Shown piece by piece: positions 10,945-44,752 of a stretch of 60,770 nucleotides of DNA (position 1 is its first letter; each line of letters starts with the position of its first letter). Source of the stretch: a virus; IMG/VR virus record IMGVR_UViG_3300045962_000005, positions 1 to 60,770 of that record; one strand, written 5' to 3'. The translations under genes were made by a program, and so were the position numbers. The notes below the pieces were generated by a model. That model was given only the letters and a program-made list of their open reading frames with translations, did no database searches and was not told the origin of the DNA.

Positions 10945-10973
10945 TTGACTGTATGCCTACGTTGTGAGATAAT
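10945..10973 (+). promoter_or_regulatory. rightward sigma70 promoter P1
   Basis: TTGACT, 17 nt, GATAAT (10968-10973) with a TGTGA extension before the -10 box. Predicted start about 10980, right at the first base of the hairpin at 10981, so the mRNA would begin with a stem-loop. Drives the 146-aa gene. Confidence 0.75.
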
Positions 10974-10980
10974 ATGTTTA

Positions 10981-11016
10981 CTGATTAGGACATGGGGTCT
11001 TAATCAGATATTTACT
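10981..11016 (+). promoter_or_regulatory. 5'-leader element 1: stem-loop + GATATTTACT
   Basis: Stem CTGATTAGGA (10981-10990) / TCTTAATCAG (10998-11007), ten pairs with one G-U, loop CATGGGG, followed directly by ATATTTACT. The layout matches the other leaders although the stem sequence is unrelated to their TTCTAACGCGTTAGAA palindrome, which argues for an RNA structure. Confidence 0.65.
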
Positions 11017-11034
11017 TAACTGAGGGATCAGAAC

Positions 11035-11475
11035 ATGAATATCAGAGAAACGATATTAAAAGAAATCGACCGCAACTGCAATAGAGTTGCGTCTTTAAAT
11101 AACGAAATTAAAGCTTGGACTGTCGTAAATGTAGACGCATACCAAGCGCTCATGGACGAGTTTACGGCTGTTGCCGATGAATTGAAAGCAAGCGGGCTGG
11201 TCACATGGACGTACGTCCACTTGTCTATGACAGGTACACCGACAATAGTCCTATCGGCAGATATAGATAAGTCAAGATTCAATGAAGTGGTGGACGTAGT
11301 AACTGAATTAGACCAGTATAGTGGTCGCTTCTCCAATTCATTCGAGCTGGCAGGGATACCAGTGAGATTCAGAATAGAGGCACCTGTTCCACAAGAGGAC
11401 GTTGATTTCCTTGAATCACTGGGTAAAGTCAAGACAATAACGGAAACACGTAAAGTAATGACCTGTAGTATTTAA
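11035..11475 (+). CDS. hypothetical early protein
   Basis: 146 aa. ATG at 11035 with GAGGGA upstream. First gene of the rightward early region, immediately behind P1 and leader element 1. Mixed alpha/beta, no Cys cluster until the C-terminus, no signal or membrane segment. Not recognised; as the first early gene it may be a host-takeover or regulatory protein, but nothing in the sequence shows this. Confidence 0.75.
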   Translation: MNIRETILKEIDRNCNRVASLNNEIKAWTVVNVDAYQALMDEFTAVADELKASGLVTWTYVHLSMTGTPTIVLSADIDKSRFNEVVDVVTELDQYSGRFSNSFELAGIPVRFRIEAPVPQEDVDFLESLGKVKTITETRKVMTCSI

Positions 11476-11484
11476 TCCCTCAGA

Positions 11485-11513
11485 GGTGAGGCGCCCCGGC
11501 GCCGAGCCTCGCC
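11485..11513 (+). other. stable G/C-rich hairpin behind the first early gene
   Basis: GGTGAGGC (11485-11492) pairs with GCCTCGCC (11506-11513); inside it GGCGCC-CC-GGCGCC can form an alternative 6-bp stem. No U-run follows, so it is not a classical intrinsic terminator; it could stabilise the 3' end or pause polymerase. Confidence 0.5.
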
Positions 11514-11515
11514 CT

Positions 11516-11535
11516 TACTATCATAACTACTATCA
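11516..11535. repeat. TACTATCATAACTACTATCA repeat, copy 1
   Basis: Twenty bases matching the repeats at 12521 and 12565; internally a 12-bp period direct repeat of ACTATCA. Sits between a G/C-rich hairpin and promoter P2. Possibly a protein-binding site. Confidence 0.6.
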
Positions 11536-11554
11536 CCGCCGTATGCCATAGGCC

Positions 11555-11582
11555 TTGCAATAGTGTGTGGATGCGGTATAAT
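11555..11582 (+). promoter_or_regulatory. sigma70 promoter P2
   Basis: TTGCAA, 16 nt, TATAAT (11577-11582). Drives the 260-aa basic protein through an 80-nt leader with a CATCGC/GCGATG hairpin (11593-11609). Confidence 0.75.
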
Positions 11583-11612
11583 GGGCACATGTCATCGCAC
11601 AAGGCGATGCAC

Positions 11613-11648
11613 TTCTAACCGGTTAGAACCTGTTAGAGGATATTTATT
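11613..11648 (+). promoter_or_regulatory. 5'-leader element 2: palindrome + GATATTTATT
   Basis: TTCTAACCGGTTAGAA (11613-11628) has a CCGG centre in place of the usual GCGC core, but stays self-complementary. The 3' arm is repeated (GTTAGAG, 11632-11638) so that TTCTAAC can pair either with the near arm or with the arm directly before GATATTTATT. Two alternative hairpins are therefore possible. Confidence 0.65.
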
Positions 11649-11670
11649 TATATGTATGGAGATACAGACA

Positions 11671-12453
11671 ATGGAAACATTAAACGACGCAAAACAAAAA
11701 GAGCTGGTAAAATTAATCAAGAGCGTAGATTCAAAGGAAAGTTCAGCAGTGAACGCCGCCGATAAAGTCGCAGATTTTCTGATTACCGAAGTTTACGACG
11801 CAACAAGACCAGCAGTGAAAGAAGCGGATTTTATTATGTCGTTCGCTAAGTCACTCTCAGACGATAACAAGATAGTCTTGAAATACAGTAAAAATGTCTG
11901 GTCAAAGATCAAACATCAAGTCAGTATCGCGGTACTTATTCAGGCAAAGCCAAACGCAGTAGTGGATTTTACCATCAACGAGCGCGGCAAGTCTAAGACT
12001 TTCACCATGACGCCGGAAGAATTAAAAACCGCTGGAGTTAAGCAAAAAGCGGCTGCAGCTGCACAGATAAGAAAAGAACTGGGCACCAGCGACGGCAGAG
12101 CCGGAAACAAAAGAGCGCCCCAAACACCGGCGGCACCAGTAACACCGGATACCATCAAGACACCGGCGGCAACTGAAACAACAAAGAAAACCACCGGCAG
12201 GCGTCAACCTAAAAACTATGAGATGCAAGTTAAAGATGCGCTATTGTTGGTAGGCGACGCCGACGAGTTCATTGACGCGCTCGTAGTGTACAGGGATAAG
12301 ATAAAATCGGCGGCTAATCGTAGAGGATACATAATCACCATAGCTGAAAAGAGCGCTGTCGTAAAGGCCCAGAAGAAAGCACCGGCTAAGAAAACAACCA
12401 CTAGACGAGCACCAAGAAAGCCGGTTGCACCAGCGCCATCAGCAAGCGCGTAG
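11671..12453 (+). CDS. basic protein with Ala/Pro/Lys-rich linker and tail
   Basis: 260 aa from ATG 11671 (METLNDAK), which has GGAG nine nt upstream; in-frame codons further 5' fall within the promoter and leader. The N-terminal third is helical (ESSAVNAADKVADFLITEVYDATR). The middle and C-terminal segments are histone H1-like (KRAPQTPAAPVTP, KAQKKAPAKKTTTRRAPRKP) around a small folded block (about 188-235). Very likely a DNA-associating protein, perhaps nucleoid-modifying. Not assigned to a family. A strong terminator follows. Confidence 0.75.
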   Translation: METLNDAKQKELVKLIKSVDSKESSAVNAADKVADFLITEVYDATRPAVKEADFIMSFAKSLSDDNKIVLKYSKNVWSKIKHQVSIAVLIQAKPNAVVDFTINERGKSKTFTMTPEELKTAGVKQKAAAAAQIRKELGTSDGRAGNKRAPQTPAAPVTPDTIKTPAATETTKKTTGRRQPKNYEMQVKDALLLVGDADEFIDALVVYRDKIKSAANRRGYIITIAEKSAVVKAQKKAPAKKTTTRRAPRKPVAPAPSASA

Positions 12454-12469
12454 TTCTAACGCGTTAGAA
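12454..12469. repeat. 16-bp palindrome TTCTAACGCGTTAGAA after a stop codon
   Basis: Begins at the base after the TAG of the basic-protein gene and precedes the terminator by 5 nt. No GATATTTATT follows. Shows the palindrome is not confined to leaders. Confidence 0.8.
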
Positions 12470-12474
12470 CCTCG

Positions 12475-12502
12475 AAGCCTCGCAGAAATGCGAGGCTTTT
12501 TT
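12475..12502 (+). terminator. intrinsic terminator of the basic-protein gene
   Basis: AAGCCTCGC / GCGAGGCTT, a perfect 9-bp stem with loop AGAAAT, followed by TTTT. A second small hairpin GTGCC-N8-GGCAC (12503-12520) comes next. Confidence 0.9.
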
Positions 12503-12520
12503 GTGCCTGAAAAAAGGCAC

Positions 12521-12541
12521 TACTATCATAACTACTATCAT
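12521..12541. repeat. 21-nt repeat, copy 2
   Basis: Starts TACTATCATAACTACTATCA and ends with T; identical to 12565-12585. Between the two copies lies a perfect hairpin GCCGTG-TGT-CACGGC (12545-12559). Confidence 0.8.
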
Positions 12542-12564
12542 AGCGCCGTGTGTCACGGCCCCAT

Positions 12565-12585
12565 TACTATCATAACTACTATCAT
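12565..12585. repeat. 21-nt repeat, copy 3
   Basis: Exact copy of 12521-12541, 44 bp apart start to start; followed by a G/C-rich stretch and the palindrome at 12611. Confidence 0.8.
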
Positions 12586-12610
12586 GCCGCGCCGTGCTGC
12601 GATAGGCAAT

Positions 12611-12626
12611 TTCTAACGCGTTAGAA
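12611..12626. repeat. 16-bp palindrome TTCTAACGCGTTAGAA at the left edge of the repeat region
   Basis: Exact palindrome with no promoter or gene next to it and no GATATTTATT behind it. It is followed by GGCACAGTATGCC, a short hairpin. Confidence 0.8.
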
Positions 12627-12836
12627 CCGGCACAGTATGCCGTGCAGTCGTGTGAAAAATGTCCAAAGCGAAAGTTTCGTAATTTAGCTATCTATTTTAG
12701 TATACACAACGTTGTGTGATGTATGCCTCCCTATCTATTTGTACAAGGCTACATAAAAACAGTGGACGCGCGTCCACTAATTATGTATGGCGTCGTGTAA
12801 CTGGACGTATGAAAATGGGGTAAAAGTGGTGTATGT

Positions 12837-12866
12837 GTATACTCCAGAGTATACTCCAGAGTATAC
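12837..12866. repeat. GTATAC array, 12-bp period
   Basis: Three GTATAC sites at 12837, 12849 and 12861 with TCCAGA between them, so that GTATACTC-CA-GAGTATAC forms two overlapping palindromes. A two-site version at 13328-13345 (GTATACTACAGAGTATAC) marks the other side of the region. Likely cooperative protein-binding sites. Confidence 0.65.
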
Positions 12867-13130
12867 ATCATAGCCCTCTATGTATTTGTACATGGCTGTA
12901 TAGAAAAAGTGGGTTTCTGTCCACTAAGGTGGACGCAAGGTGGACGGAAAACGCCGAAATTGTACCGCAAACGCCTTGTGAAATTCCTTTAAAATCAGTG
13001 TTGTGTCACTTTTTGCGTCCACAGCGTCCACATACGCAATGGGATAAGCATATGAAATATATATATATATTAGTAGTAGCGTCCACCGTGGACGCAAAAA
13101 AAAAATCTACAAAGGGTCAAAATTTCAGAT

Positions 13131-13158
13131 CGAGTAAGGAAGATCCCTACTCGTTTTT
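13131..13158 (+). terminator. intrinsic terminator with no gene upstream
   Basis: CGAGTAAGGA pairs with TCCCTACTCG (nine of ten pairs), loop AGA, followed by TTTTT and an A-run. It lies inside the repeat region on the plus strand, more than 600 nt after the last gene, so it may end a small RNA made from the region. I found no clear promoter for such an RNA. Confidence 0.55.
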
Positions 13159-13369
13159 AAAAAAAAACCCAGCTCTACCCTGAAAATTGCGTCCATCTGT
13201 CCACAAATGCCTCAAAGCCAAGCCCAGCAAGGCCTACAGGCTGGACAGAACTTTTTTATTTGCGTCCACTAGTCTGGACGCTCGTCCACCTTTTTTACAC
13301 AGCCTTGTACAAATACACACAGGGGGAGTATACTACAGAGTATACACACCTAGACTCTCTCATCCTAGC

Positions 13370-13397
13370 TTGACATAGTGTTTAAAGAGCGTATAAT
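13370..13397 (+). promoter_or_regulatory. sigma70 promoter P3
   Basis: Consensus TTGACA, 16 nt, consensus TATAAT (13392-13397), just right of the iteron region. Drives the 157-aa gene through a 135-nt leader containing a GTGCGTA/TATGCAC stem (about 13456-13488) and two extra TATTTAT motifs. Confidence 0.85.
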
Positions 13398-13495
13398 GGT
13401 AAGTGAGATGTGGGAGATTGCATTCACTGAAGGACAAAATCTCATTTCTTAAATGTGCGTATTTATTACATGCCTATTTATATGCACGCTTATAG

Positions 13496-13540
13496 TTCTA
13501 ACGCGTTAGAAATTAACTTAACCTTAACAGGATATTTATT
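13496..13540 (+). promoter_or_regulatory. 5'-leader element 3: palindrome, spacer, GATATTTATT
   Basis: TTCTAACGCGTTAGAA (13496-13511) is separated from GATATTTATT (13531-13540) by 19 nt, unlike elements 5 and 6 where they abut. The ATG follows at once, so the AU stretch lies between the AGG ribosome-binding site and the start codon. Confidence 0.65.
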
Positions 13541-14014
13541 ATGGAACAACTACCCATAGACGAAAGGCCCAAGTACCTGTCAATAGCACTGACCACTGGG
13601 CAGAATAATTTTTTGCATACAGTCAATGCGAACTCGTTTACTTTCCTGAAGCACAGAGGGGTAACCTTTGCGTTGACAGAACGTAACTATTATTTCGACA
13701 CCAATAACAGCAAGCCACGCTACACCACCATGAAAACAACCAACTGTAGCTGGGATAAGAATTATGCTATCTATATACTAGTGCCTGAATACGACGTGTT
13801 TATACACGTGTCTACTGTATCAGTAGACAATGAGACAGAATACGAGCAGGTAACTGAAGCACTGGACGGAGCGCGAATGACTTATGCCAGTACATCTGAG
13901 CGGGCGATAGCGGGATTTATGCAAACTCTGCACTGGCTGGACGGCAGTAAGCCATTCACTAAGCCAAACACAGGCTATGATGTCGTATCACGCGCCAATG
14001 GCGCCAAATATTAA
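13541..14014 (+). CDS. hypothetical early protein
   Basis: 157 aa, start fixed by P3 and the leader. Mixed alpha/beta with Tyr-rich strands (NYYFDTNNSKPRYTTM, YNYAIYILVPEYD-like). No Cys motif, no membrane segment. Not recognised. Probably co-transcribed with the next gene, whose start is 10 nt after its stop. Confidence 0.75.
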   Translation: MEQLPIDERPKYLSIALTTGQNNFLHTVNANSFTFLKHRGVTFALTERNYYFDTNNSKPRYTTMKTTNCSWDKNYAIYILVPEYDVFIHVSTVSVDNETEYEQVTEALDGARMTYASTSERAIAGFMQTLHWLDGSKPFTKPNTGYDVVSRANGAKY

Positions 14015-14024
14015 GGAGAAAAAA

Positions 14025-14477
14025 ATGAAAGTCATATTAAATAAATGCTACGGCGGGTATACATTATCGCATGATGCCAAAATGGAACTACTGAAAGTTA
14101 AACATACAGGGGCATACCCATATGTATGCTCATCAAACTACGATGGGAAAACAATTACATTGTTAGATATGCCATACAACAGTGAAAATGCAACCTATGG
14201 GCTGGATATTGTATATATGGAAGGGCCAATTGAAGAAACGCCGTGCGTTATGCACGAAGATGATTTTATGCAGGAAGCAAAAACAGCCAATGACATATTT
14301 TCGAGTACCGAAAGAGATGATCCTGATTTAGTTGCCGTAGTAGAAAGGCTGGGCGAACGGGCATCAGGTTCGTGTTCTAAATTGGTTGTCGTGGATATAG
14401 ACGATGATATACAAGACTACGAGATATCAGAGTACGACGGGTTTGAAACACTTCACGAAAAACATCGTAAGTGGTAA
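14025..14477 (+). CDS. conserved phage hypothetical protein
   Basis: 150 aa from ATG 14025, preceded by AAGGAG. The start 'MKVILNKCYGGYTLS' and the end 'DPDLVAVVERLGERASG...LVVVDIDDDIQDYEISEYDGFETLHEKHRKW' match a small protein present across many myo- and podoviruses (K-V-x-x-I-P-D-x-x-x-x-x-I-x-E-Y-D-G-x-E-x-x-x-E-x-H-R-x-W). Its function is unknown. An ACGGCTACC/GGTAAGCCGT hairpin follows (about 14492-14514). Confidence 0.75.
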   Translation: MKVILNKCYGGYTLSHDAKMELLKVKHTGAYPYVCSSNYDGKTITLLDMPYNSENATYGLDIVYMEGPIEETPCVMHEDDFMQEAKTANDIFSSTERDDPDLVAVVERLGERASGSCSKLVVVDIDDDIQDYEISEYDGFETLHEKHRKW

Positions 14478-14572
14478 GAGTACTGAGCACGGCTACCAGA
14501 AGGTAAGCCGTAACTGCAATACATTAGTGCTGCTAACACTATGAATTATAAAACTAAACAGAGGACAAAGCA

Positions 14573-14806
14573 ATGCTACAGGAGCAAAATAATAAATTAA
14601 AACGTGCAAAAAGACTTGAGCGTAATAAAATAGAGCGTAGCAAGTCGCACGAAATTAAGAACAAGACGCACGCACGTCGTCCAGAGCAGTTCACTATGTC
14701 AGTGAAGGAATACGACATAGACTATTATGCAGAACATATTGATGCATATACCGATGGTGACGATTGGCGTACCTATATATTATACGCAGACGGGAGAACA
14801 GCCTAA
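14573..14806 (+). CDS. small basic-acidic hypothetical protein
   Basis: 77 aa with GAGG upstream. The first half is strongly basic (KLKRAKRLERNKIERSKSH), the second acidic and Tyr-rich (EYDIDYYAEHIDAYTDGDDW). The basic half may bind nucleic acid. Not recognised. Confidence 0.6.
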   Translation: MLQEQNNKLKRAKRLERNKIERSKSHEIKNKTHARRPEQFTMSVKEYDIDYYAEHIDAYTDGDDWRTYILYADGRTA

Positions 14807-14830
14807 TTACGTACGACAAAAGGAACTATT

Positions 14831-14859
14831 TTGACATACGCCTCACGGCGTGAGATAAT
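14831..14859 (+). promoter_or_regulatory. sigma70 promoter P4
   Basis: TTGACA, 17 nt, GATAAT (14854-14859), with the same CGTGA/TGTGA-GATAAT -10 context as P1. Followed by a perfect hairpin TAGGGG-CACT-CCCCTA (14868-14883) at the predicted 5' end. Confidence 0.85.
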
Positions 14860-14887
14860 AGTAGAAATAGGGGCACTCCCCTAAACA

Positions 14888-14948
14888 CTGCGTCGGGTAT
14901 TCTAACGCGTTAGAATCTACACCAACTACTTCGACGCAGATATTTATT
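14888..14948 (+). promoter_or_regulatory. 5'-leader element 4: long stem enclosing the palindrome + GATATTTATT
   Basis: Outer stem CTGCGTCG (14888-14895) / CGACGCAG (14932-14939) encloses the TTCTAACGCGTTAGAA hairpin (14900-14915). The outer stem's last G is the first base of GATATTTATT (14939-14948). Here the AU motif abuts a second, unrelated stem rather than the palindrome. Confidence 0.7.
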
Positions 14949-14965
14949 AATGACAGGAGAAAATT

Positions 14966-15985
14966 ATGTCACAGACACAACCACAACATACACCACTCGT
15001 ATCATCCACCATGGCGAAGGCTGATACATTGATTACAAGCGCACGGAATACCTTTTACCGGGCGAAGATAACTTTTACGATGCCACCACGCACTAAGAAA
15101 GACCGCAAGGCAGAGGCTGATGCGGAATCTATAAATAATGCCTATGGTGCCATCAAAGCGTCGCGTAACCTGTATGCTGCGCAGTTCATTAAACCGTTCG
15201 AGTCTATTGCCAGTAAGTGGCGTAAGCGTATTGCCTCGTTCGCGGTACTCATCGGTGAAGACCAGTGTATACACAAGGAATACATCATGCAGGTCATGGA
15301 GGAATATCAGGACGAGTGCCTACCGGAGTGGAACCACCAGAAAGTCATATTCGGCAATCACTACGCGGAAATACTCAGGCAGTCACAGCATGAACAGGGT
15401 GATTTGTTCGACCCGACGATTTATCCTGATGTAGCACAGGTAATAGACCAGTTCACTTGCACACTGGACATACGACCACTTGGCACGGTTCAGACAGAAA
15501 TGTTTGACGGGCTGGAAACAGCGATAGCTGATGAGGTAGCAGAGTCCATGAAAGCGACGATTATGCGCGATATAGAGAACTCACTGCGCAAGCCTGTAGA
15601 GACGCTAATGGAGAACCTGATGAACGTGCATCAGAAATTATCCAAGAGTATTAATACGCCGGAAGGGGTTAAGGCAACACCGCTGTACGAATCGTTGATG
15701 CTGAACTTAGAGGATATTGCCAATATGATGCCAGCACTGAACGTTACAAATAGTGCGTTTCTCAATGACATCGCGGCGAAGGCACGCAGGCTGATTGTAC
15801 CGATAGAAACGTTGCGGGTAAGCCAGACCGCTAGGGAGGAAACAGCGGAGAAGGCTGAGGCACTGCTGACTGAACTCAATGTGAATACGGACAATAATAA
15901 AAATGCCAACGACATTAAGGACAGGCGGGAGGCAGCCAAGGCGTCGGCTGAGGCTATACTGGCACAAATGAAGGGAATGTTCTAG
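14966..15985 (+). CDS. helical protein upstream of the MoxR-VWA pair
   Basis: 339 aa, start with AGGAG. Almost wholly helical, with a conserved-looking N-terminus (KADTLITSARNTFYRAKITF), a central acidic part and a long C-terminal coiled-coil-like region (ETAEKAEALLTELNVNTD). It resembles DUF3150-type proteins that accompany MoxR ATPases in phages; that link is from memory and uncertain. Own promoter P4; the MoxR gene follows under P5. A partner or substrate of the ATPase pair is plausible. Confidence 0.7.
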   Translation: MSQTQPQHTPLVSSTMAKADTLITSARNTFYRAKITFTMPPRTKKDRKAEADAESINNAYGAIKASRNLYAAQFIKPFESIASKWRKRIASFAVLIGEDQCIHKEYIMQVMEEYQDECLPEWNHQKVIFGNHYAEILRQSQHEQGDLFDPTIYPDVAQVIDQFTCTLDIRPLGTVQTEMFDGLETAIADEVAESMKATIMRDIENSLRKPVETLMENLMNVHQKLSKSINTPEGVKATPLYESLMLNLEDIANMMPALNVTNSAFLNDIAAKARRLIVPIETLRVSQTAREETAEKAEALLTELNVNTDNNKNANDIKDRREAAKASAEAILAQMKGMF

Positions 15986-15993
15986 GAAGTTCT

Positions 15994-16021
15994 TTGACAT
16001 TATGCCCATGTGATGTATAAT
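15994..16021 (+). promoter_or_regulatory. sigma70 promoter P5
   Basis: TTGACA, 16 nt, TATAAT (16016-16021). TGATGTAT (16011-16018), a half-site of the operator at 10747, covers the -10 box and is followed by ATTACATA, an imperfect second half. Drives the MoxR-VWA genes and perhaps the replication genes. Confidence 0.85.
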
Positions 16022-16033
16022 ATTACATAGATG

Positions 16034-16123
16034 GGTAACCATTTCCGTTGAGGTGTGAACACGCTCACTCCCCCTTGCCATATTTCTCACAGGTTACCAA
16101 TGCCAGTGGTAACCACTCAACGG
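16034..16123 (+). promoter_or_regulatory. structured leader with competing stems
   Basis: GGTTACC (16092-16098) can pair with GGTAACC at 16034-16040 or with GGTAACC at 16108-16114. The second pairing nests inside an outer stem CCGTTGAG (16045-16052) / CTCAACGG (16116-16123). The two states exclude each other. This fits a conditional RNA switch ahead of the MoxR gene, but the ligand or trigger is unknown. Confidence 0.5.
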
Positions 16124-16129
16124 CACAAC

Positions 16130-16155
16130 TTCTAACTCGTTAGAAGATATTTATT
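16130..16155 (+). promoter_or_regulatory. 5'-leader element 5: palindrome abutting GATATTTATT
   Basis: CTTCTAAC-TC-GTTAGAAG: the arms are kept while the centre deviates, as expected if the centre is a hairpin loop. The stem's closing G begins GATATTTATT (16146-16155). AGGAGG and ATG follow. Confidence 0.7.
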
Positions 16156-16174
16156 AACAGCTCAGGAGGAAACC

Positions 16175-17188
16175 ATGAGTATTAAAATTAGTGCAGTACC
16201 AGATATAATCGTTTCATTGTATAACAATGAGCAAACGCGTCACCGTACCTTATTTTTAAAAGGTGCATCAGGTGTTGGTAAGTCAGACACCGTAAGGCAG
16301 GCTGCTGAAGTATTAGGCGTAGACCTGATTGACTTACGTTTAGCACAGCTTGACCCGACAGATTTAAAAGGGATACCGTATCCGGTGGATGGGGTTACCC
16401 AGTGGGCCGTACCGGGGTTTTTCCCTCAAGACCCTGAGTCTGCAGGGATATTATTCTTGGACGAAATTACGTCCGCACCTCCAGCGATACAGGCAGCTGG
16501 ATACCAGTTGGTTCTTGACCGTGCACTGGGGGATTATCAGTTGCCGGATGGGTGGATGATAATTGCTGCGGGTAACCGTACCTCTGACCGTGGCGTTACG
16601 TATCAAATGGCGGCGCCGTTACAGAACCGCGTGACGGAGCTGGACGTGGAGCATACGCTTGAAGGGATACTGGACTATGGTGCGGGTAATGGACTCGACC
16701 CTCGCGTTATGGCCTTTTTATCTGAACGTGCCGACTTGGTGCATAAATTTGGTAAAGAGGAATACGGCAAGCCGTTCCCTTCTCCGCGTGGTTGGTTCGC
16801 AGTGAGTCCGATACTGGACATGGACCTACCGCAGGCTTATAAACTTGACCTGATTATTGGGTCAGTGGGGCATGAAGCAGGGATAGCGTTCGAGGCGTTC
16901 TTACGGGTATGGGACAAGATGCCGTCCATCAGCAAGATACTGGCGGGTGAACCTGAGCAAGTGCCTACCGATTTAGGTACGTTGGCCTGTGTAACCATGG
17001 GCCTGTCCGCACGGCTCACCGCTAAAGGTATGGATAAGGCATGGGATTATCTCATGAGTATGCCACGGGAGATGTCGTTACTGGCTATTAAGTTAGCGTA
17101 TAAGCGCGACAAGTCATTAGCTCAGGCTAAAATGTTTGGTGAATGGGCGAGAAGTAATAAAGACCTGTTTAAAGAACTATTACAATAG
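16175..17188 (+). CDS. MoxR-family AAA+ ATPase
   Basis: 337 aa. Walker A GASGVGKS (30-37), Walker B ILFLDEI (92-98), sensor 1 'IIAAGNRTSD' (about 129), and a MoxR-type C-terminal lid. MoxR proteins are chaperone-like ATPases that act with VWA-domain partners to remodel or insert metal in target complexes. The partner gene lies 9 nt downstream. Ribosome-binding site AGGAGG. The host or phage target is unknown. Confidence 0.9.
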   Translation: MSIKISAVPDIIVSLYNNEQTRHRTLFLKGASGVGKSDTVRQAAEVLGVDLIDLRLAQLDPTDLKGIPYPVDGVTQWAVPGFFPQDPESAGILFLDEITSAPPAIQAAGYQLVLDRALGDYQLPDGWMIIAAGNRTSDRGVTYQMAAPLQNRVTELDVEHTLEGILDYGAGNGLDPRVMAFLSERADLVHKFGKEEYGKPFPSPRGWFAVSPILDMDLPQAYKLDLIIGSVGHEAGIAFEAFLRVWDKMPSISKILAGEPEQVPTDLGTLACVTMGLSARLTAKGMDKAWDYLMSMPREMSLLAIKLAYKRDKSLAQAKMFGEWARSNKDLFKELLQ

Positions 17189-17197
17189 GGGATTAAC

Positions 17198-18436
17198 ATG
17201 GATTTAGAACAACGACTGAATGACGTAGCCGCGCGTATGGTGCTGGCTGAACCGTTCCTTGCCAGTATCTTTGTGAAACTACCGCGTAAGGTAGTGGATT
17301 GGGGAACAGCAGCAACGAATGGTGAGGTATTTTACTTTTGCGACTCGTTCTGCAGTGACTTAAATGACAGTGAACTGATGTTTATTGCACTGCATGAAAC
17401 GGCGCATGTTGCGCTACAGCACTCTTGGCGCAGAGGTGACAGGGAACCGTCAATATATAATACCGCTTGTGATGCAGTGATTAACCCAGAGATAAAACGG
17501 CTACCGAGAAATTACCAGATGCCGGAGGGCGGTGTATTATTCCCTTGGGTAACTCAGGAGATGTCAGCGGAGGACGTGTACTCTATACTGCGTAAGCAGG
17601 CGAGTGAACAACCGGACTATCCGCAGTCTGGCAGTGGTCAGGGTAATGAAGGTGAACAATCGGGTCAGGGAGGTGCGTCGCGTCGGAAATCCCCGGCACA
17701 ACAGGGAGACGACGCAGACGGTGGGAAATCACCGGAAGAGCAGGCTGCTAATACTGGTGGTGGGGGTTGGGATGGTCAGGGTGACCTGATGGACTCTACG
17801 TCACCGGAGGCACAGGCTGATATAGAGGCAACGATTATTGCTAATGCCCGTATGTTTAAAGCAGCAGGTTCGAGTTCGGCCTTTGCGGACAGGGTAATTG
17901 ACGGTGCTAATACGCCACAGGTATCTTGGCCTGAACTACTGCGTCAGGTAATGACTTCTACATCTAAGGACGACTATTCTTGGAGGCGGGGCAACCGACG
18001 CTATACGCATCAGGGGTTATATCTTCCTTCATTATATACGGACTCAATGGGCGGGCTGGTGGTAGCCGTGGATACGTCGGGTTCCGTAGGGCAGGACGAG
18101 ATGAATCAGTTTGCTGCTGAAATCAATGCGATATTTGAAGACTGCAGGCCGGATTGGGTGGAGGTGATTTATTGCGATACTAATGTGAAACACCACGAAC
18201 GGTTTAACGAAGGGGATATTGTGGAGCTGCACGCAAAAGGTGGCGGTGGCACACGGTTCAGACCTGTATTTGACTACGTGGAAGAAATGCAGGAGAGAGT
18301 ATCCGCTATGGTTTTCTTCACTGACCTTATGGGTAATGTGCATGAGCTGGAGGAACCGGACTATCCGGTACTGTGGGGTCTGACCTATGGAAGCAAAGAG
18401 GCGCCTTTCGGTGAAACTGTGAGGATAGACGTATGA
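17198..18436 (+). CDS. VWA-like metallopeptidase-domain protein (DUF2201 type)
   Basis: 412 aa. The N-terminal domain has H-E-T-A-H at 66-70 inside a helix (LMFIALHETAHVALQHSW), an HExxH zinc site, and a CDAVINPEI stretch. A flexible Gly/Gln/Ser linker (about 135-205) follows. The C-terminal VWA domain has an intact MIDAS: D-T-S-G-S at 292-296, Thr in GGGGTRF (about 352), Asp in FFTDLMG (about 376). This is the standard partner layout for MoxR ATPases. It overlaps the next gene by 4 nt. Whether it is an active protease is open. Confidence 0.85.
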   Translation: MDLEQRLNDVAARMVLAEPFLASIFVKLPRKVVDWGTAATNGEVFYFCDSFCSDLNDSELMFIALHETAHVALQHSWRRGDREPSIYNTACDAVINPEIKRLPRNYQMPEGGVLFPWVTQEMSAEDVYSILRKQASEQPDYPQSGSGQGNEGEQSGQGGASRRKSPAQQGDDADGGKSPEEQAANTGGGGWDGQGDLMDSTSPEAQADIEATIIANARMFKAAGSSSAFADRVIDGANTPQVSWPELLRQVMTSTSKDDYSWRRGNRRYTHQGLYLPSLYTDSMGGLVVAVDTSGSVGQDEMNQFAAEINAIFEDCRPDWVEVIYCDTNVKHHERFNEGDIVELHAKGGGGTRFRPVFDYVEEMQERVSAMVFFTDLMGNVHELEEPDYPVLWGLTYGSKEAPFGETVRIDV

Positions 18437-18654
18437 ACTTCAGCGAGTTTTTATATCGCTTGTGGGTAGCTGAGACACTTCACTATTTTGGTGAGGTGTT
18501 ACCGATTAACGAGATAACCGCAGGCACACTAGAGCACCGCGTTGACTATAACGACCCGCCTATTGTTGACGTAGACGGCGATGCAATGCGGACATTTATA
18601 TTAACCTACGACATAGAGAGACTTATTTATGAGCAGAAGAACACATTTAACTGA
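18433..18654 (+). CDS. small hypothetical protein
   Basis: 73 aa, ATGA overlap with the VWA gene, so translationally coupled. Acidic, with Tyr- and Phe-rich stretches. It overlaps the next gene by 26 nt. Not recognised; may belong to the MoxR-VWA module. Confidence 0.6.
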   Translation: MNFSEFLYRLWVAETLHYFGEVLPINEITAGTLEHRVDYNDPPIVDVDGDAMRTFILTYDIERLIYEQKNTFN

Positions 18655-18919
18655 TGATAAGGGCAAGTTTGACCCGATGGCAGAAGTCTTAAAACGCGTG
18701 CGTCGCATCGAGACGCGAGTGATGAAAGGCTTTGAACAGCTTGGTGCTACTATCACGCACGAAGATGGGCGAATTATCATTGACCATGACAATGAAGTGA
18801 TAACCATCAAAACGATGGGTACAACTGTCGGAGAGATATTAACGGCGCTTGGCAATAACAAGGGCGAGTATTATGTCGTATACAACGACGTGGCACGTTG
18901 CATACTGAAAGTGCAATAA
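18629..18919 (+). CDS. small hypothetical protein
   Basis: 96 aa. A basic N-terminus (RVRRIETRVMKGFEQLG) is followed by beta-like strands (RIIIDHDNEVITIKTMGTTVGEILTAL). Not recognised. Its stop is 12 nt ahead of the next start. Confidence 0.6.
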   Translation: MSRRTHLTDDKGKFDPMAEVLKRVRRIETRVMKGFEQLGATITHEDGRIIIDHDNEVITIKTMGTTVGEILTALGNNKGEYYVVYNDVARCILKVQ

Positions 18920-18931
18920 GGAGAGAGAATA

Positions 18932-19111
18932 ATGCATATTTTATTTGCGAAACCAAAAGAAATTGTTTTCACTTTAGACGCCTTTAGGGGAGAAGCACTA
19001 TCAAATCTGGTAGAAACATTGGGCCTTTCGGATGAAGACCTTGAAGGTTTAGATGAATTTTATTTAACAGTAACAGCAGTTGAAACTGTGTACCTTGAAA
19101 AAGATGAGTAG
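18932..19111 (+). CDS. 59-aa acidic hypothetical protein
   Basis: ATG at 18932 behind AAGGAGAGAG, ending TAG at 19109-19111. Acidic, with the pattern ETLGLSDEDLEGLDEFYLTVT. It fills what would otherwise be a gap in a packed operon and overlaps the next gene by 8 nt. Not recognised. Confidence 0.65.
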   Translation: MHILFAKPKEIVFTLDAFRGEALSNLVETLGLSDEDLEGLDEFYLTVTAVETVYLEKDE

Positions 19112-19379
19112 TATAGCGCTGCGGAAAGAAACTATAGACTTGCTGAGAAAGGCAATCAGGGAGCTGGGCGAAGATAAAGCGTACAACTTATTCTCCGAGG
19201 CTATGGCGCAGGTTAAATCAGAACGCGTGAAACCGGTTACTGCGGTGCCACTTCTGAGTCCTAATCAGGTTGACCTGTGTAAACGGCTAACATCTAAATA
19301 CGGGTATACGCCGCATGAGTTGTCCAGAAAACTGCAGGTGGATAAACAAACGATAATTAACGTGCTGGAGGGGGCATAA
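19104..19379 (+). CDS. small helix-turn-helix protein
   Basis: 91 aa from ATG 19104 (MSSIALRK); a frame from 19080 would need a TTG. The C-terminal 40 residues (SPNQVDLCKRLTSKYGYTPHELSRKLQVDKQTIINVLEG) read as a helix-turn-helix with a recognition helix DKQTIINVL. The N-terminus is helical. It overlaps the polymerase start by one base. Possibly a regulator or DNA-binding accessory of replication. Confidence 0.6.
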   Translation: MSSIALRKETIDLLRKAIRELGEDKAYNLFSEAMAQVKSERVKPVTAVPLLSPNQVDLCKRLTSKYGYTPHELSRKLQVDKQTIINVLEGA

Positions 19380-21217
19380 TGGCAGATATTAATTTTTTTG
19401 CAACGATAGATTTTGAGACGTACTATGACAGGGAATTTTCTCTGTCTAAAATGCAGACCGACGAGTATGTATTAGACTCACGATTTGAAATTATAGGCGT
19501 GGGGTGTAAAGTTGGAAACGGTGAAATAGAGTTTTTCAGCGGTAGCCATCAGGAAGTATGCGATTGGTTAGTGACACGGTTTAACTGGGCCACGACACCA
19601 GTATGTTTTCATAATGCACAGTTCGACGGGTTTATATGCACGCAGATATTAAAACTAAAACCGTATATCATACTGGATACGATATCAATGGCGCGTATGG
19701 TTTATCCTTGGTGGAAATCCTATTCACTGAAAAACGTTTCTAACGCGTTAGAAATTGGCAGCAAGGGTACGGAAGTAGTTACCTTCATGGGGTATCAGCT
19801 ACAGGACTTTACTGAAGATGCATTGCGTCGTTACGGGGAATACTGTAAAAATGACGTAGGGTTAACGCATACAATAGCAGAGATGTTGATACCTAAAATA
19901 CCATTATTAGAAATAATGATGATTGATATGACTGTCCGAATGTTTACCGAGCCGAGGATAAAAGGGGATACGGCTAGGCTAGTGGCCTACCACAACCAAG
20001 AGGTGAGCAGGAAAATAGAACTGGTCAATGCGGCTAATGCCGATAAAGAAGACTTGATGTCTAATGAAAAGTTTGCGGATAAACTGCGCGACTTAGGGAT
20101 TAAACCACCTATGAAGATATCAAAACGTACTGGTAAATGGGCCTTTGCCTTTGCTAAGAATGACCGTCAGTTTACTGACCTGTTAAATTGCGGAGTGCCG
20201 GAAGTGGAAGCGCTTGTATCCGCGCGAATAGGGGTAAAAAGTACAATTTCAGAAACCCGTGCGCTGCGTATGATTCATGCTAGTCACCGAGGTTTACTAC
20301 CCGTACACTTAAACCACTGGGGCGCTAAAACTACAGGCAGGCTATCTGGTGGTAATAAAATGAACTACCAGAATATACCGTCCAGAGGTTTAGGCAAGGA
20401 GCTACGTAAATGCATGGTAGCACCGGAAGGGTATAAGATAGTGGTTGGGGATTCCTCCAACATAGAGCTGCGGGTAGTTATGGCTTGTGCTGGCGATAAG
20501 GAGAGCTTAGCCCTGCTGTATAACGGTGATGATTTATACTGTGACTTTGCCAGTAAGCTGCATGGCAGGGTCATAACTAAGGAGGACAAGAAAGAACGTA
20601 TGCTAGGTAAAGTAGCTATGCTGTCACTTCAATACGGTGCTGGTTCAAGTACGTTCAGGCATATGGTACGAATGATGGCAGGTATAGTTATTGATGAGGA
20701 CGAAGCGCAAAGCATCGTAAACATATATAGAAATATACACCCTGAGATTAGAGACTTATGGGATAGGATGGAGTATATACTACGGGCTGTGCAAAATGGC
20801 GAAGAACTGGTGCCATTGGATAAAAATGCATGGGTTCTGACAACAGAAGATGGTTTCGCTATACCCGGATTACCGGGAGTGTGCTACAATAATTTACGTA
20901 GAGGCAGCGATGGCTCTTGGGAGTACCGGATGGGGGATAATTACGTGCATATTTACGGCGGTAAAGTCGTAGAAAATTTATGCCAACACATAGCTAGGCA
21001 CATTGTAATGTGGCAAACGCTAAGGGTACATAGGAAATATCCAGTTTCTATAAGTGTGCACGATGAGATGGTCTGCGTTGTTCCTGAAGAAGAGGCAGAG
21101 GCATGTAAAGCGTATATGCTTGAATCTCTGCGAAAGGCACCTGTTTGGTGCGAAGGTGAAATACCACTAGAAGGAGAGGTAGCTTATGGCGATAGCTATG
21201 GCGAAGCAAAAATATAG
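19379..21217 (+). CDS. DNA polymerase, family A, with 3'-5' exonuclease
   Basis: 612 aa, the phage replicase. Exonuclease motifs: D11-F-E13 (IDFETY), HNAQFD (78-83), YCKND (155-159). Polymerase motifs: A at GDSSNIELR (D358), B at K411...Y419-G420, C at HDE (561-563). There is no 5'-3' exonuclease domain, as in T7-type enzymes. One 16-bp palindrome lies in the coding sequence (19738-19753). Nuclease, helicase and primase genes follow, so it belongs to the replication unit. Confidence 0.95.
   Translation: MADINFFATIDFETYYDREFSLSKMQTDEYVLDSRFEIIGVGCKVGNGEIEFFSGSHQEVCDWLVTRFNWATTPVCFHNAQFDGFICTQILKLKPYIILDTISMARMVYPWWKSYSLKNVSNALEIGSKGTEVVTFMGYQLQDFTEDALRRYGEYCKNDVGLTHTIAEMLIPKIPLLEIMMIDMTVRMFTEPRIKGDTARLVAYHNQEVSRKIELVNAANADKEDLMSNEKFADKLRDLGIKPPMKISKRTGKWAFAFAKNDRQFTDLLNCGVPEVEALVSARIGVKSTISETRALRMIHASHRGLLPVHLNHWGAKTTGRLSGGNKMNYQNIPSRGLGKELRKCMVAPEGYKIVVGDSSNIELRVVMACAGDKESLALLYNGDDLYCDFASKLHGRVITKEDKKERMLGKVAMLSLQYGAGSSTFRHMVRMMAGIVIDEDEAQSIVNIYRNIHPEIRDLWDRMEYILRAVQNGEELVPLDKNAWVLTTEDGFAIPGLPGVCYNNLRRGSDGSWEYRMGDNYVHIYGGKVVENLCQHIARHIVMWQTLRVHRKYPVSISVHDEMVCVVPEEEAEACKAYMLESLRKAPVWCEGEIPLEGEVAYGDSYGEAKI
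19738..19753. repeat. TTCTAACGCGTTAGAA inside the polymerase gene
   Basis: Exact 16-bp palindrome encoding V-S-N-A-L-E around residues 120-125 of the polymerase. No promoter or GATATTTATT is next to it. Confidence 0.85.
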
Positions 21218-21275
21218 GGAAAAATACGTAGTTACTTCATGCGACATACTAAAAGGAAGATGCTATGCAAAATAA
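21186..21275 (+). CDS. possible 29-aa overlapping peptide
   Basis: ATG at 21186 with GGAGAGG nine nt upstream, running out of the polymerase 3' end in another frame and over the start of the nuclease gene. Basic product (MAIAMAKQKYREKYVV...). It bridges the 47-nt gap and could couple translation of the two genes. Weak: length only. Confidence 0.3.
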   Translation: MAIAMAKQKYREKYVVTSCDILKGRCYAK

Positions 21276-21924
21276 ATTTCCGCTCAGTTACAGCAGGTTA
21301 AGCTGTTTTAAACAGTGCCCTGCGAAATTTGAGTACTTGTATATTACTAAGTCAGTGCAGGATGCTGGCAATGAGCATACGCGGTTCGGAGAAAGGGTTC
21401 ATAAATCACTGCAGTCGTATGGTGAAACAGCTGACCCAGCTGAGCTAACTAATGAGACAGTAGACTTTAAAAGGATACTGGACAAAGTACTTGGCTATTC
21501 AGGCAAACACTACTACGAGCATAAAATGGCGATAGATGAAGACTGTATGCCTGTAGATTGGTTCAGTTCTGATGCGTGGTTTCGAGGCATAGCGGACGTA
21601 TTAATAGTAGATGGGGATAGAGCGACATGTATCGATTGGAAAACAGGAAAAAAGAGAGAAGACATGACGCAGCTGATGCTGTTCTCTTGCATGGTTATGT
21701 TTACTTTCCCTCAGATAAATACGGTACAAAGTGCATTCGTCTGGTTAAAATCCGAAGAAACAACGACGTGCACAGTAGACCGTGAAGCAGCTGAAAAGTT
21801 TTGGGTTAGGATGCAGAGTCAGTTTGATAAAGTGCAGGAGGCGGTGGACGTTGGCGTTTTCACTGCTAAGACGAGTGCCTTATGTAACTGGTGCCCTGCA
21901 AATAAAGTGTGTATATACAGATGA
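21265..21924 (+). CDS. Cas4/RecB-like PD-(D/E)XK nuclease with Fe-S cysteines
   Basis: 219 aa. Nuclease motif residues: H46, E85, D111 (FRGIADVLIV), D124-W-K126 (CIDWKTGKK). Cys14/Cys18 plus a C-terminal CNWCPANKVC (Cys207, 210, 216) form a Cas4/AddB-type iron-sulphur cluster site. Probably processes DNA ends during replication or recombination. No CRISPR array or Cas1 is nearby. Its last codon overlaps the next gene. Confidence 0.85.
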   Translation: MQNKFPLSYSRLSCFKQCPAKFEYLYITKSVQDAGNEHTRFGERVHKSLQSYGETADPAELTNETVDFKRILDKVLGYSGKHYYEHKMAIDEDCMPVDWFSSDAWFRGIADVLIVDGDRATCIDWKTGKKREDMTQLMLFSCMVMFTFPQINTVQSAFVWLKSEETTTCTVDREAAEKFWVRMQSQFDKVQEAVDVGVFTAKTSALCNWCPANKVCIYR

Positions 21925-22208
21925 AGAACGAAGGTGACGTTAAGAAAGAGGTTAAAAAAATACTTAACGCCATTGATAACTGCTGGTGGTATATGCCAGT
22001 GCAAACAGGGTATGGGGTAAAAGGCATACCGGATTTTATATGCAGCGTTAGGGGTACGCTAGTAGGCATAGAAACGAAGTTTGGAAACAACAAAGAATCG
22101 CCTTGGCAAAAACGGCAAGGTGAAGGAATACTAAACTCAGGTGGTATTTATGTAGTTATTAACAATAAAAACATAGGTACGCTAACTGAGATATTAACTA
22201 ATATATAG
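21921..22208 (+). CDS. VRR-NUC domain nuclease
   Basis: 95 aa from ATG 21921 (MKNEGDVKKEVKKIL), overlapping the preceding TGA. PD-(D/E)XK variant: E4, then GIPDFI...LVGIETK with Asp, Glu and Lys in order, then SPWQKRQGE, the typical VRR-NUC Q. Stand-alone VRR-NUC proteins are common in phages and cut branched DNA. Likely resolves replication or recombination intermediates for packaging. Confidence 0.85.
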   Translation: MKNEGDVKKEVKKILNAIDNCWWYMPVQTGYGVKGIPDFICSVRGTLVGIETKFGNNKESPWQKRQGEGILNSGGIYVVINNKNIGTLTEILTNI

Positions 22209-22218
22209 GAGAAGTAAA

Positions 22219-22938
22219 ATGGCAACAGTTAGAATGACAAAAACGCTAAAGCAAGAAATTTTAAGTGCTATAGACGCTAAGTACAATACGGTTATAGATT
22301 CATATAAACCCAGCAAGGACATTATAGACAGAGCTACGGAACTTGCTCATAAAGCGATAGAGGAAGACGTGGTAAAAGTGAAAGAAATTGAATCAGAGCT
22401 GCAAGGACTTTTAGACAGACATACACGCTACATAAAAGACGTCAGTGCTGACCTTTTTGCAAGTAGAATATTTAATAGGCACTATGGTTATATTCCTGTT
22501 ACGTTGTCGGAAAAAGAAGATACAGTAAACTTACTAAGTTTTAATATGCCTTTAGATAGGTATGAAAAATCTAATAGCTATGTTTATACAACTACTGGTA
22601 TAGGTAATCGTATTCGTTTAGAAGATGAAGACCTAATTAAACTGGTAAAGCCGTTAAGAACTGAAGCTAATAGTATTAATAACGCTAGATACGAAATAAA
22701 ACAGCACATAAGAGAGATTATGATAACGACAACAACACTAAAGCAGTTGTTAGATGTCGTGCCTAAAGTTGTAGAGTTCGTGCCATCGTATGCTATTTCA
22801 GCTAGGAACAGCAAAGAAAAACGCTACGCTCCTAAAAAAGAAAAAGAAACTATCGATGAAACTATGGCTAATAGCCTTAGTAAGTCCTTAGATGAAGTAT
22901 CTACGCACGCTGATGCAATAAAAATACTGGGAGAATAA
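22219..22938 (+). CDS. hypothetical protein, resembles Nmad5-type
   Basis: 239 aa. The N-terminus 'MTKTLKQEILSAIDAKYN' followed by a helical coil and a beta-rich middle (about 85-140) resembles the family called nucleotide modification-associated domain 5; I hold this match loosely. No catalytic motif is visible. It lies between nuclease and helicase genes with 1-10 nt gaps. If the match holds, the phage might modify its bases, yet no glycosyl- or methyltransferase is seen. Confidence 0.5.
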   Translation: MATVRMTKTLKQEILSAIDAKYNTVIDSYKPSKDIIDRATELAHKAIEEDVVKVKEIESELQGLLDRHTRYIKDVSADLFASRIFNRHYGYIPVTLSEKEDTVNLLSFNMPLDRYEKSNSYVYTTTGIGNRIRLEDEDLIKLVKPLRTEANSINNARYEIKQHIREIMITTTTLKQLLDVVPKVVEFVPSYAISARNSKEKRYAPKKEKETIDETMANSLSKSLDEVSTHADAIKILGE

Positions 22939-22939
22939 T

Positions 22940-24484
22940 ATGTTTGTAGTACCTTCAAAACGGAAATTAGTCTTCAGGGCTAACGACCACAACAAGGTAT
23001 CTGCATTACTGCCAACAGCAAAAGCATTCAACTACGATGGCGCTCCTGCCGTCGCGGTTGACCACAGTCAGGATGCAGTACGAATACTTAGGAACATAGG
23101 GTATAGAAATGTACCCTCACCTATCCGATATTACTATGATTGGTCAGGGCTATATAAACCAATGCCGCACCAGATAGACACCGCAGAATTCATGTCGATG
23201 AACAGCCGTGCTCTATGTCTAAACGCACCGGGTACGGGTAAAACGGTTAGTGTGTTGTGGGCTGCCGACCATATGCTGCAGGAGGGCATAATAAAACGGA
23301 TTCTTATTATAGCGCCGTTATCAACACTCAAGCCCGTATGGGGAAATGAGATAATGCGCCACTTTATGCACTTGAATTTTGTTATTGTAACGGGTGACCG
23401 TAAGCGTAAAATGAAACTGGCTAGTGACAAAGACGCAGACGTTGTTATTATAAACCACGATGGTTTTACCACTATGCCAAGTATGTTTTATGACTGCGAC
23501 TTAATCATATACGATGAAGCAACGGCACTAAAAACGCCAACGTCTATACGATATAAAACCATGTTTAAATACATGCGAACGCATAGGCCGAGGCTATGGT
23601 TGTTGACGGGTACACCCATATCGCAGAACCCTACTGATGCGTGGACACTATCTAAGCTGTGTGAGTCACCAAAAGTACCAGCCACTTTTACGCACTTCAA
23701 AGAATTAACGATGCGTAAGGTAAGTCAGTTCAAGTGGATACCAAGGCCAGAAGCGCTGAGCATCTGTAAGGAGGTAATGCAGCCGTCTATACGTTTTTCT
23801 TTAGACGAGTGTAAAGACCTACCTGACACGGTGTACGTTGACAGAGGGTGTGAACTAACGAAGATGCAGAGTGTTGCATTTGACGAGATGCTGGAGAAAG
23901 CAGTTGTCGCGGGTACAGATATTGAAGCGGCGAACGCGGCAGTACTTTTCTCTAAGCTAGTACAAATTAGTTGTGGCGTTGCGTACGATACGGACGGTGA
24001 CAGGGTTCATTTTGACGATGCCGGAAGGGTGGATGCACTAACTGAAATCATCGATGAAATTGGTGATAAGGTCATTATTTTTGTGCCGTTAAGAGGTGTT
24101 CAGGATAGGCTGGAGACGCTGCTGGGTAAGCATTACGACGTTGCGTCAGTACATGGCGGCGTGAGCAAGAATGAGCGCAACAAGATATTTGACATATTCC
24201 AGAATAGTGATAAAATAAAGGTATTAATAGCGCACCCTAAAGTTGCAGCACACGGGCTAACATTAACCCGTTCACGTTGCATCATCTGGTATGCTCCGAT
24301 ATATAGCCTAGAACAATACGAGCAGGCAAACGCACGTATACGCAGGTTAAACACTCAGGGCAGAACAGTTATTTACCATATATACGCTACTAAATTTGAG
24401 AAGACACTGTACGGACGTTTAAAGAATAAGCAAAAGATTCTGAACGACTTCCTTGCGTTAGTGCGTGGAACAAATGAGGACTGA
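22940..24484 (+). CDS. SNF2-type superfamily 2 helicase
   Basis: 514 aa. Motif I NAPGTGKT (about 95-102), Ia IIAPLSTLKPVW, II YDEAT (about 191-195), III LTGTP, V KVAAHGLTLTRS, VI YEQANARIRR. Compact phage form without a separate DNA-binding domain. Such enzymes act in phage replication or recombination as duplex translocases. Its start is one base after the preceding stop. Leader element 6 begins one base after its stop. Confidence 0.9.
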   Translation: MFVVPSKRKLVFRANDHNKVSALLPTAKAFNYDGAPAVAVDHSQDAVRILRNIGYRNVPSPIRYYYDWSGLYKPMPHQIDTAEFMSMNSRALCLNAPGTGKTVSVLWAADHMLQEGIIKRILIIAPLSTLKPVWGNEIMRHFMHLNFVIVTGDRKRKMKLASDKDADVVIINHDGFTTMPSMFYDCDLIIYDEATALKTPTSIRYKTMFKYMRTHRPRLWLLTGTPISQNPTDAWTLSKLCESPKVPATFTHFKELTMRKVSQFKWIPRPEALSICKEVMQPSIRFSLDECKDLPDTVYVDRGCELTKMQSVAFDEMLEKAVVAGTDIEAANAAVLFSKLVQISCGVAYDTDGDRVHFDDAGRVDALTEIIDEIGDKVIIFVPLRGVQDRLETLLGKHYDVASVHGGVSKNERNKIFDIFQNSDKIKVLIAHPKVAAHGLTLTRSRCIIWYAPIYSLEQYEQANARIRRLNTQGRTVIYHIYATKFEKTLYGRLKNKQKILNDFLALVRGTNED

Positions 24485-24485
24485 C

Positions 24486-24511
24486 TTCTAACGCGTTAGA
24501 AGATATTTATT
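24486..24511 (+). promoter_or_regulatory. 5'-leader element 6: palindrome abutting GATATTTATT, no promoter
   Basis: CTTCTAACGCGTTAGAAG followed by ATATTTATT, identical in layout to element 5. I see no -35/-10 pair nearby, so it would lie within a read-through mRNA. This fits RNA processing or a translational element better than an operator. Confidence 0.7.
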
Positions 24512-44741: not shown

Positions 44742-44752
44742 TTTATTTCTCC

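Follow-up and report, generated by a model that had tools for sequence, protein, structure and literature searches.

A phage-specific palindrome, probably a regulator-binding site, and a separate leader motif at early gene starts of the virus IMGVR_UViG_3300045962_000005

The nearest known systems to the one considered here are the stoperators of mycobacteriophage L5 and its cluster A relatives, and the start-associated sequences (SAS) and extended SAS (ESAS) of cluster K mycobacteriophages. Each phage has its own stoperator consensus, which has diverged among related phages (PMC6550527); those of L5 are asymmetric sites of 13 bp, oriented with transcription, and belong to the monomeric repressor of temperate phages (PMC9283540). 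The cluster K SAS, GGGATAGGAGCCC, lies 3-7 bp from the start, and the ESAS repeats are imperfect, 17 bp long and separated by a variable spacer; the inverted-repeat consensus of the ESAS differs between subclusters, pairing is not conserved and DNA binding has been proposed (PMC3203893). Here, we have analysed the IMG/VR virus record IMGVR_UViG_3300045962_000005 (60,770 nucleotides, hereafter the window), in which six gene leaders (leaders 1 to 6) contain the motif GATATTTAYT and a palindrome, TTCTAACNNGTTAGAA, recurs in and outside these leaders. A preliminary description had taken the stem-loops and the motif together as one repeated RNA element. Our analysis favours, with a probability of about 0.6, two elements: the palindrome would be the operator of a phage-encoded dimeric regulator with a stoperator-like action, and GATATTTAYT with its hairpin a second element that acts in the mRNA leader.

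Palindrome arrays in the window and in related phages

TTCTAACNNGTTAGAA is a perfect DNA palindrome of 16 bp and of strict 7-2-7 layout. The window contains eight exact copies and none with one or two mismatches, where 0.42 matches with at most two mismatches were expected. Leaders 2 to 6 contain five of the copies and three are elsewhere (12454, 12611 and 19738), while leader 1 is without one; the palindromes of the leaders lie approximately +25 to +100 from the inferred sigma-70 start sites. The palindrome directly adjoins the motif in leaders 5 and 6 only; in leader 3 it is 19 nt away and in leader 4 23 nt, and so it cannot itself form the abutting stem in these two leaders. Its fold as RNA is weak, at -1.7 kcal/mol alone and -4.2 kcal/mol with a C-G closing pair. 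The shared TTCTAAC..GTTAGAA stem had been proposed to be an RNA element, a proposal not supported by the eight identical 7-2-7 copies, of which one lies within a gene and others away from leaders. Judged from its sequence, the repeated leader "stem" appears to be for the most part a palindrome in the DNA, such as regulatory proteins bind. Without the motif, the palindrome matches five viral contigs, at one place in each.

No DNA similarity of the window to known phages was found. Its DNA polymerase shares 30-37% identity with the enzymes of RHph_TM3_14A, Rollin and KPP25; with those of some IMG/VR contigs the identity reaches about 50-56%. These relatives were scanned for repeated gapped palindromes, with permuted-arm palindromes as the control. 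Arrays were found in the same setting with other sequences, namely TAATCCCNNGGGATTA, CTAACAN(1-2)TGTTAG, GTCACANTGTGAC, TTCGTACNGTACGAA, CGGAACN3GTTCCG and GTTACCN6GGTAAC; each such genome has a single palindrome sequence, which is present 5-22 times (38 times in one genome), the controls giving about zero. The copies (exact plus one-mismatch where separated) are 19 exact for CTAACANTGTTAG in G001/L088, 13 for CTAACANNTGTTAG in L073, 10 exact + 8 one-mismatch in G002/L043, 9 exact + 13 one-mismatch for GTCACANTGTGAC in G003/L030, 10 for TTCGTACNGTACGAA in G004/L051, 3 + 6 for CGGAACN3GTTCCG in G007/L072, 5 + 1 for TAATCCCNNGGGATTA in L024, 8 in G010/L016, which shares the core TAATCC with L024, and 15 + 23 for GTTACCN6GGTAAC in RHph_TM3_14A. 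In the latter phage the sites are spread over the whole genome, and in the other long contigs they fall within one stretch of 8-20 kb around early genes. Other start-associated repeats in the relatives were mainly the palindromes themselves and the repeat CTACTATCA (see below); an array-like repeat in L122, GCTGCT(5)AGCAGC, was set aside as probably due to coding repeats. We found no description of these palindromes in the open-access literature.

The palindromes are strongly associated with gene starts. In RHph_TM3_14A, whose genes are annotated, 17 of the 38 sites fall between -60 and +20 of a gene start, where 12% would be expected (p = 3e-7), and in eight genomes including the window this holds for 55 of 110 sites at -70 to +20 of a predicted start, against a background of 17% (p = 1e-15; starts in unannotated contigs were called with a simple gene caller made for this analysis). 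In the leader of the MoxR-like ATPase gene (leader 5 in the window) relatives keep a palindrome of another sequence: the window, L024, G001, G002, G006 and L073 all have the order promoter, palindrome, ribosome-binding site and start there, although their palindromes are unrelated; the promoters of the relatives were read by eye. The palindrome lies farther upstream in G003 and is weakly supported in L007. Several palindromes lie directly 5' of operon terminators, and those of RHph_TM3_14A occur in genes of both orientations. In many copies of L073 and G002 the start codon is inside the palindrome. Palindromes that enclose the start codon next to GGAGGA-like ribosome-binding sites were also seen in several genes of L073, L060 and L088; with the start codon embedded in this way, one sequence would serve as both operator and translation start.

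Conservation of pairing in related phages had been set beforehand as a test of the RNA interpretation, and the palindrome does not pass it: in 46 of the 65 one-mismatch copies in the relatives the change breaks the pair, and in 19 it leaves a G-U. The test covers the palindrome only, the stems of leaders 1, 2 and 4 having no homologues. Copies within each phage share their sequence beyond what mere pairing would need. The asymmetry between G-U changes and their mirror changes, worked by hand as a further RNA test, was not decisive. Broken pairing, together with sites in coding DNA, at gene ends and in both orientations, is the pattern expected of a DNA operator, and the sequences thus point to one.

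The leader motif and its hairpins

All six GATATTTAYT sites given in the preliminary description were recovered exactly, all on the + strand and with no further copy in the window, while 200 dinucleotide shuffles of the window gave a mean of 0.61 exact matches on both strands together (maximum 3). Each site lies 5' of a plausible start codon (11035, 11671, 13541, 14966, 16175 and 24531) at a distance of 0-22 nt; in leader 3 the motif comes after the ribosome-binding site and before the ATG. Five of the leaders are downstream of sigma-70-like promoters, which match 10-12 of 12 consensus positions and are consensus matches only; promoter-like matches over the whole region do not exceed those in shuffles, and these five rank among the best. 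No promoter adjoins leader 6, which is located between an SNF2-type helicase gene and a Gam-like gene; this junction lacks both palindrome and motif in 12 relatives, and leader 6 is therefore specific to the window phage.

The earlier term "phage-wide" is too strong for a signal that comprises six leaders in the early region. As a leader motif GATATTTAYT is absent from all relatives examined, with isolated matches in two loci only; GATATTTA gave isolated matches only in the relatives, the exact combination of palindrome and motif was found in none of the viral contigs searched, and Rfam gave no match at the gathering threshold.

Five leaders, and not four as had been claimed, are predicted to form a hairpin that closes on the first G of the motif. 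The exception is leader 3, where the abutting structure is a helix of 3 bp and no stem was scored. RNA folding gives probabilities of 0.99, 0.96, 0.98 and 0.98 to the closing pairs C10981-G11007, C11612-G11639, C14888-G14939 and C24485-G24502, and 0.44 to that of leader 5 (C16129-G16146) in the full leader; the AU stretch of the motif is predicted to be mostly unpaired in leaders 1 to 5. Scoring the best hairpin that ends exactly at the motif G (in leader 6 a hairpin longer than the palindrome) and combining the six leaders by Fisher's method gave p = 1e-4 with shuffles as the background; with random G positions the value was 5e-4, and with G positions in intergenic DNA it was 3e-3. This signal comes mainly from leaders 1, 4 and 6, and leader 3 contributes none to it. 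The leader element, that is, the motif with its abutting stem, is real, and its statistical weight is modest. The argument that different stems with the same layout favour RNA over a DNA operator has support in leaders 1, 2 and 4, whose stems end exactly on the motif G, and lacks it for the shared TTCTAAC..GTTAGAA, which is a DNA palindrome. These different stems and the mostly unpaired AU stretch make an RNA reading of motif plus stem tenable. The positions of all these features are given in Table 1.

Table 1. Leader features, palindromes and a candidate binding protein in the window
Feature	Position	Strand	Details
Leader 1 promoter, sigma-70-like	10945..10973	+	TTGACT-17-GATAAT; 10/12 consensus positions, match only
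Leader 1 hairpin, closes on motif G, no palindrome	10981..11007	+	CTGATTAGGA/TCTTAATCAG; -12.9 kcal/mol, shuffle p 0.012
Leader 1 motif	11007..11016	+	GATATTTACT
Leader 2 promoter, sigma-70-like	11555..11582	+	TTGCAA-16-TATAAT; 10/12
Leader 2 hairpin, one palindrome half and a third half-site	11612..11639	+	CTTCTAAC/GTTAGAGG; -11.2 kcal/mol, shuffle p 0.05
Leader 2 palindrome	11613..11628	.	TTCTAACCGGTTAGAA
Leader 2 motif	11639..11648	+	GATATTTATT
Palindrome without motif	12454..12469	.	directly 3' of gene ending at 12453, just 5' of terminator-like hairpin
Palindrome without motif	12611..12626	.	non-coding DNA
Leader 3 promoter, sigma-70-like	13370..13397	+	TTGACA-16-TATAAT; 12/12
Leader 3 palindrome	13496..13511	.	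5' of motif
Leader 3 motif	13531..13540	+	GATATTTATT; no significant abutting stem
Leader 4 promoter, sigma-70-like	14831..14859	+	TTGACA-17-GATAAT; 11/12
Leader 4 hairpin, palindrome inside loop	14888..14939	+	CTGCGTCG/CGACGCAG; -16.4 kcal/mol, shuffle p 0.002
Leader 4 palindrome	14900..14915	.	
Leader 4 motif	14939..14948	+	GATATTTATT
Leader 5 promoter, sigma-70-like	15994..16021	+	TTGACA-16-TATAAT; 12/12
Leader 5 palindrome (16130-16145) doubling as abutting stem	16129..16146	+	TTCTAACTCGTTAGAA; -4.2 kcal/mol only, shuffle p 0.14
Leader 5 motif	16146..16155	+	GATATTTATT
Small open reading frame, candidate binder	19104..19379	+	predicted C-terminal helix-turn-helix; directly 5' of DNA polymerase
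Palindrome inside DNA polymerase A gene	19738..19753	.	
Leader 6 palindrome (24486-24501) doubling as stem	24485..24502	+	
Leader 6 motif	24502..24511	+	GATATTTATT

The surrounding DNA has further repeats. The directional repeat CTACTATCA occurs at 10906, 11527, 12520, 12532 and 12576, and also at 18747 and 42185, never on the other strand; it is also present in the contig of relative L016 (L125, G010, five copies), and in both genomes it lies near palindromes. The non-coding stretch 12640-13400 is rich in repeats, with long inverted repeats (12736-12776/13275-13315 and 12874-12938/13260-13324) and GTATACTCCAGAGTATAC palindromes at 12835, 12847 and 13326, and is origin-like. In G003 (L101-L105), two diverged primase-helicase blocks (13-20 kb and 80-87 kb) may indicate two phages joined in assembly.

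Possible mechanism and alternative explanations

Under the favoured explanation, a phage-encoded dimeric regulator would bind TTCTAACNNGTTAGAA in duplex DNA. Because copies are located at +25 to +100 from start sites, between genes, before a terminator and within a gene, the bound protein would meet the elongating RNA polymerase, and most likely it acts on elongation and early gene expression in a roadblock- or stoperator-like manner, beyond the mere covering of promoters. That each phage lineage has its own half-site would be expected if the regulator and its operators change together. GATATTTAYT with its hairpin would be a lineage-specific, start-associated element of the mRNA leader, in which the hairpin most likely holds the AU stretch single-stranded 5' of the ribosome-binding site, thereby aiding loading of 30S/S1 or determining how stable the mRNA is; judged by its position, the motif could also promote cleavage. 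A single sequence would play both roles, operator and stem, in leaders 5 and 6.

Candidates for the binding protein exist. Many relatives encode, between two conserved genes, a protein of 78-91 amino acids with a predicted helix-turn-helix (HTH; predicted local distance difference test score (pLDDT) 89.5), whose best Foldseek matches are ImmR, DdrO and P22 c2 (E-values 0.1-0.5, probabilities 0.9-1.0). The conserved Tyr of its recognition helix is followed by N in the CTAACA phages, by A or T in the two copies of the GTCACA contig, by M with TTCGTAC and by H with CGGAAC; this match between residue and half-site, noticed post hoc among kin phages, is at most suggestive. A ribbon-helix-helix-like protein, read from its sequence and with a weak BrnA match, is present in the six CTAACA phages of the set, a distribution confounded by kinship. 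In the window, the product of the small open reading frame 19104-19379 (pLDDT 81-88 over the HTH, giving moderate confidence in the HTH only) is one candidate binder, as yet unproven; it gave no significant fold match, and no relative of it was found.

Several observations weigh against the operator reading. The search for a binder found none for the window phage, and the conserved HTH family resembling P22 c2 and ImmR has no member in the window, L016, L024 or RHph_TM3_14A. The arrays are not universal, none being found in G009, G011, G012 or the KPP25 stretch despite ample DNA; further contigs also lacked one, in some cases because too little upstream DNA was covered. The half-site spacing varies between 1 and 2 nt among the CTAACA phages, which is unusual for a single dimer geometry, the palindromes, at 13-18 bp, could form weak hairpins as RNA too, and the leader motif is known from a single genome. 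The gene-start statistic for unannotated contigs, which depends on the simple gene caller, counts here too. Finally, neither an integrase nor a resolvase domain was found in ten related contigs, in searches that both had working controls, and with no lysogeny gene the classic reason for having stoperators is missing. It should be mentioned that the public record of RHph_TM3_14A annotates attL/attR and an integrase (L008 32240-35323, corresponding to 42239-45322 of the record). In clustering, however, this "integrase" gene groups with the window's DUF927 primase-like gene, and its name may be wrong.

The alternative that survives best, although we consider it unlikely, is that the stem and AUAUUUAYU form a single post-transcriptional signal (an RNase E-type site, a 5' stabiliser or an S1 site) with the stem acting as RNA. 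It would account for the three leaders with stable, differing stems that end exactly at the G and for the mostly single-stranded motif, whose GAU/AUU fits a loose RNase E consensus, but it leaves unexplained why some palindromes lack the motif, with one of them inside a gene and one ahead of a terminator, why palindrome stems fold so weakly and homologous palindromes do not conserve pairing, why leader 3 has no abutting stem and why the relatives lack the motif. A second alternative, which is improbable, is that the palindromes are hairpins for a phage RNA-binding regulator, that is, translational operators around start codons; the copies of L073 and G002 that enclose an ATG beside a ribosome-binding site, the loops of 3-6 nt typical of hairpins and a proportion of G-U-preserving changes somewhat above 1 in 6 agree with this, whereas the copies before terminators, in the middle of genes and, in RHph_TM3_14A, in both gene orientations do not, and neither do the unpairing of most near-miss copies and the exact palindromy that runs into the would-be loop. 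Rather improbable, too, is that the palindromes are replication, recombination or packaging sites or selfish repeats, found at gene starts incidentally: the repeat-rich 12.6-13.4 kb stretch and the shared CTACTATCA repeats do suggest other DNA-level functions nearby, but the association with gene starts is strong, and the position in the ATPase leader is conserved while the sequence turns over. A hairpin promoter for an N4-like phage RNA polymerase is highly improbable. The 2267-residue open reading frame 29757-36560 (- strand) does match the N4 virion RNA polymerase profile, but at positions 206-642 of 3406 only, outside the polymerase core, and the idea was rejected on this profile coverage; stem size and loop also vary widely. 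A phage RNA_pol search without a match was uninformative, its control being equally silent.

Returning to palindromic operators, we advance a broader version of this explanation only tentatively and at less than even odds: a clade of apparently non-integrating phages (kin of RHph_TM3_14A, and of KPP25 as judged by DNA polymerase) might use phage-specific palindromic operator arrays, often built into the start codon, that gate the elongation and initiation of early genes singly, with the half-site repeatedly replaced wholesale between lineages and, in the window phage, coupled to an RNA hairpin/AU leader cassette.

Comparison with known systems

If verified, the favoured explanation would mean that stoperator-like control by dispersed sites exists beyond temperate actinobacterial phages, with palindromic sites, and that this clade offers a natural series for a regulator and its 10-40 sites changing specificity together. 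It would also raise the question of why phages without an integrase need such control. A more general caution is that a repeated leader palindrome is not automatically an RNA stem.

The AU stretch beside a stem, 5' of the ribosome-binding site, resembles AU-rich translational enhancers and S1/Hfq or RNase E sites; the likeness is one of layout, and the motif is known from a single genome. In P22 the operators are few and sit at two promoters. The arrays share with operators of the P22 c2/XRE type their palindromic sites and the c2-like HTH protein conserved in many relatives, but they comprise 5-22 (once 38) copies across genes, and the c2-like protein is missing in the window phage. The likeness to SAS/ESAS also concerns layout: an asymmetric repeat that keeps one orientation near starts, with inverted repeats preceding some of its copies, and a location in non-structural genes. 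In both systems the inverted repeats also differ in sequence between groups of phages and fail to conserve pairing. The motif, however, is GATATTTAYT and not the cluster K sequence, is AU-rich and lies 0-22 nt from the start, and the palindromes are short, perfect and also found away from starts. With the L5 stoperators, for which a block of elongation has been proposed, the arrays have in common many short, dispersed copies of one phage-specific sequence, between and within genes; they differ in that the sites are perfect or near-perfect palindromes instead of asymmetric 13-bp sequences, and in that no integrase was found in the ten contigs searched. Site symmetry and sequence thus exclude membership of either the stoperators or the SAS/ESAS, while the working principle may be shared.

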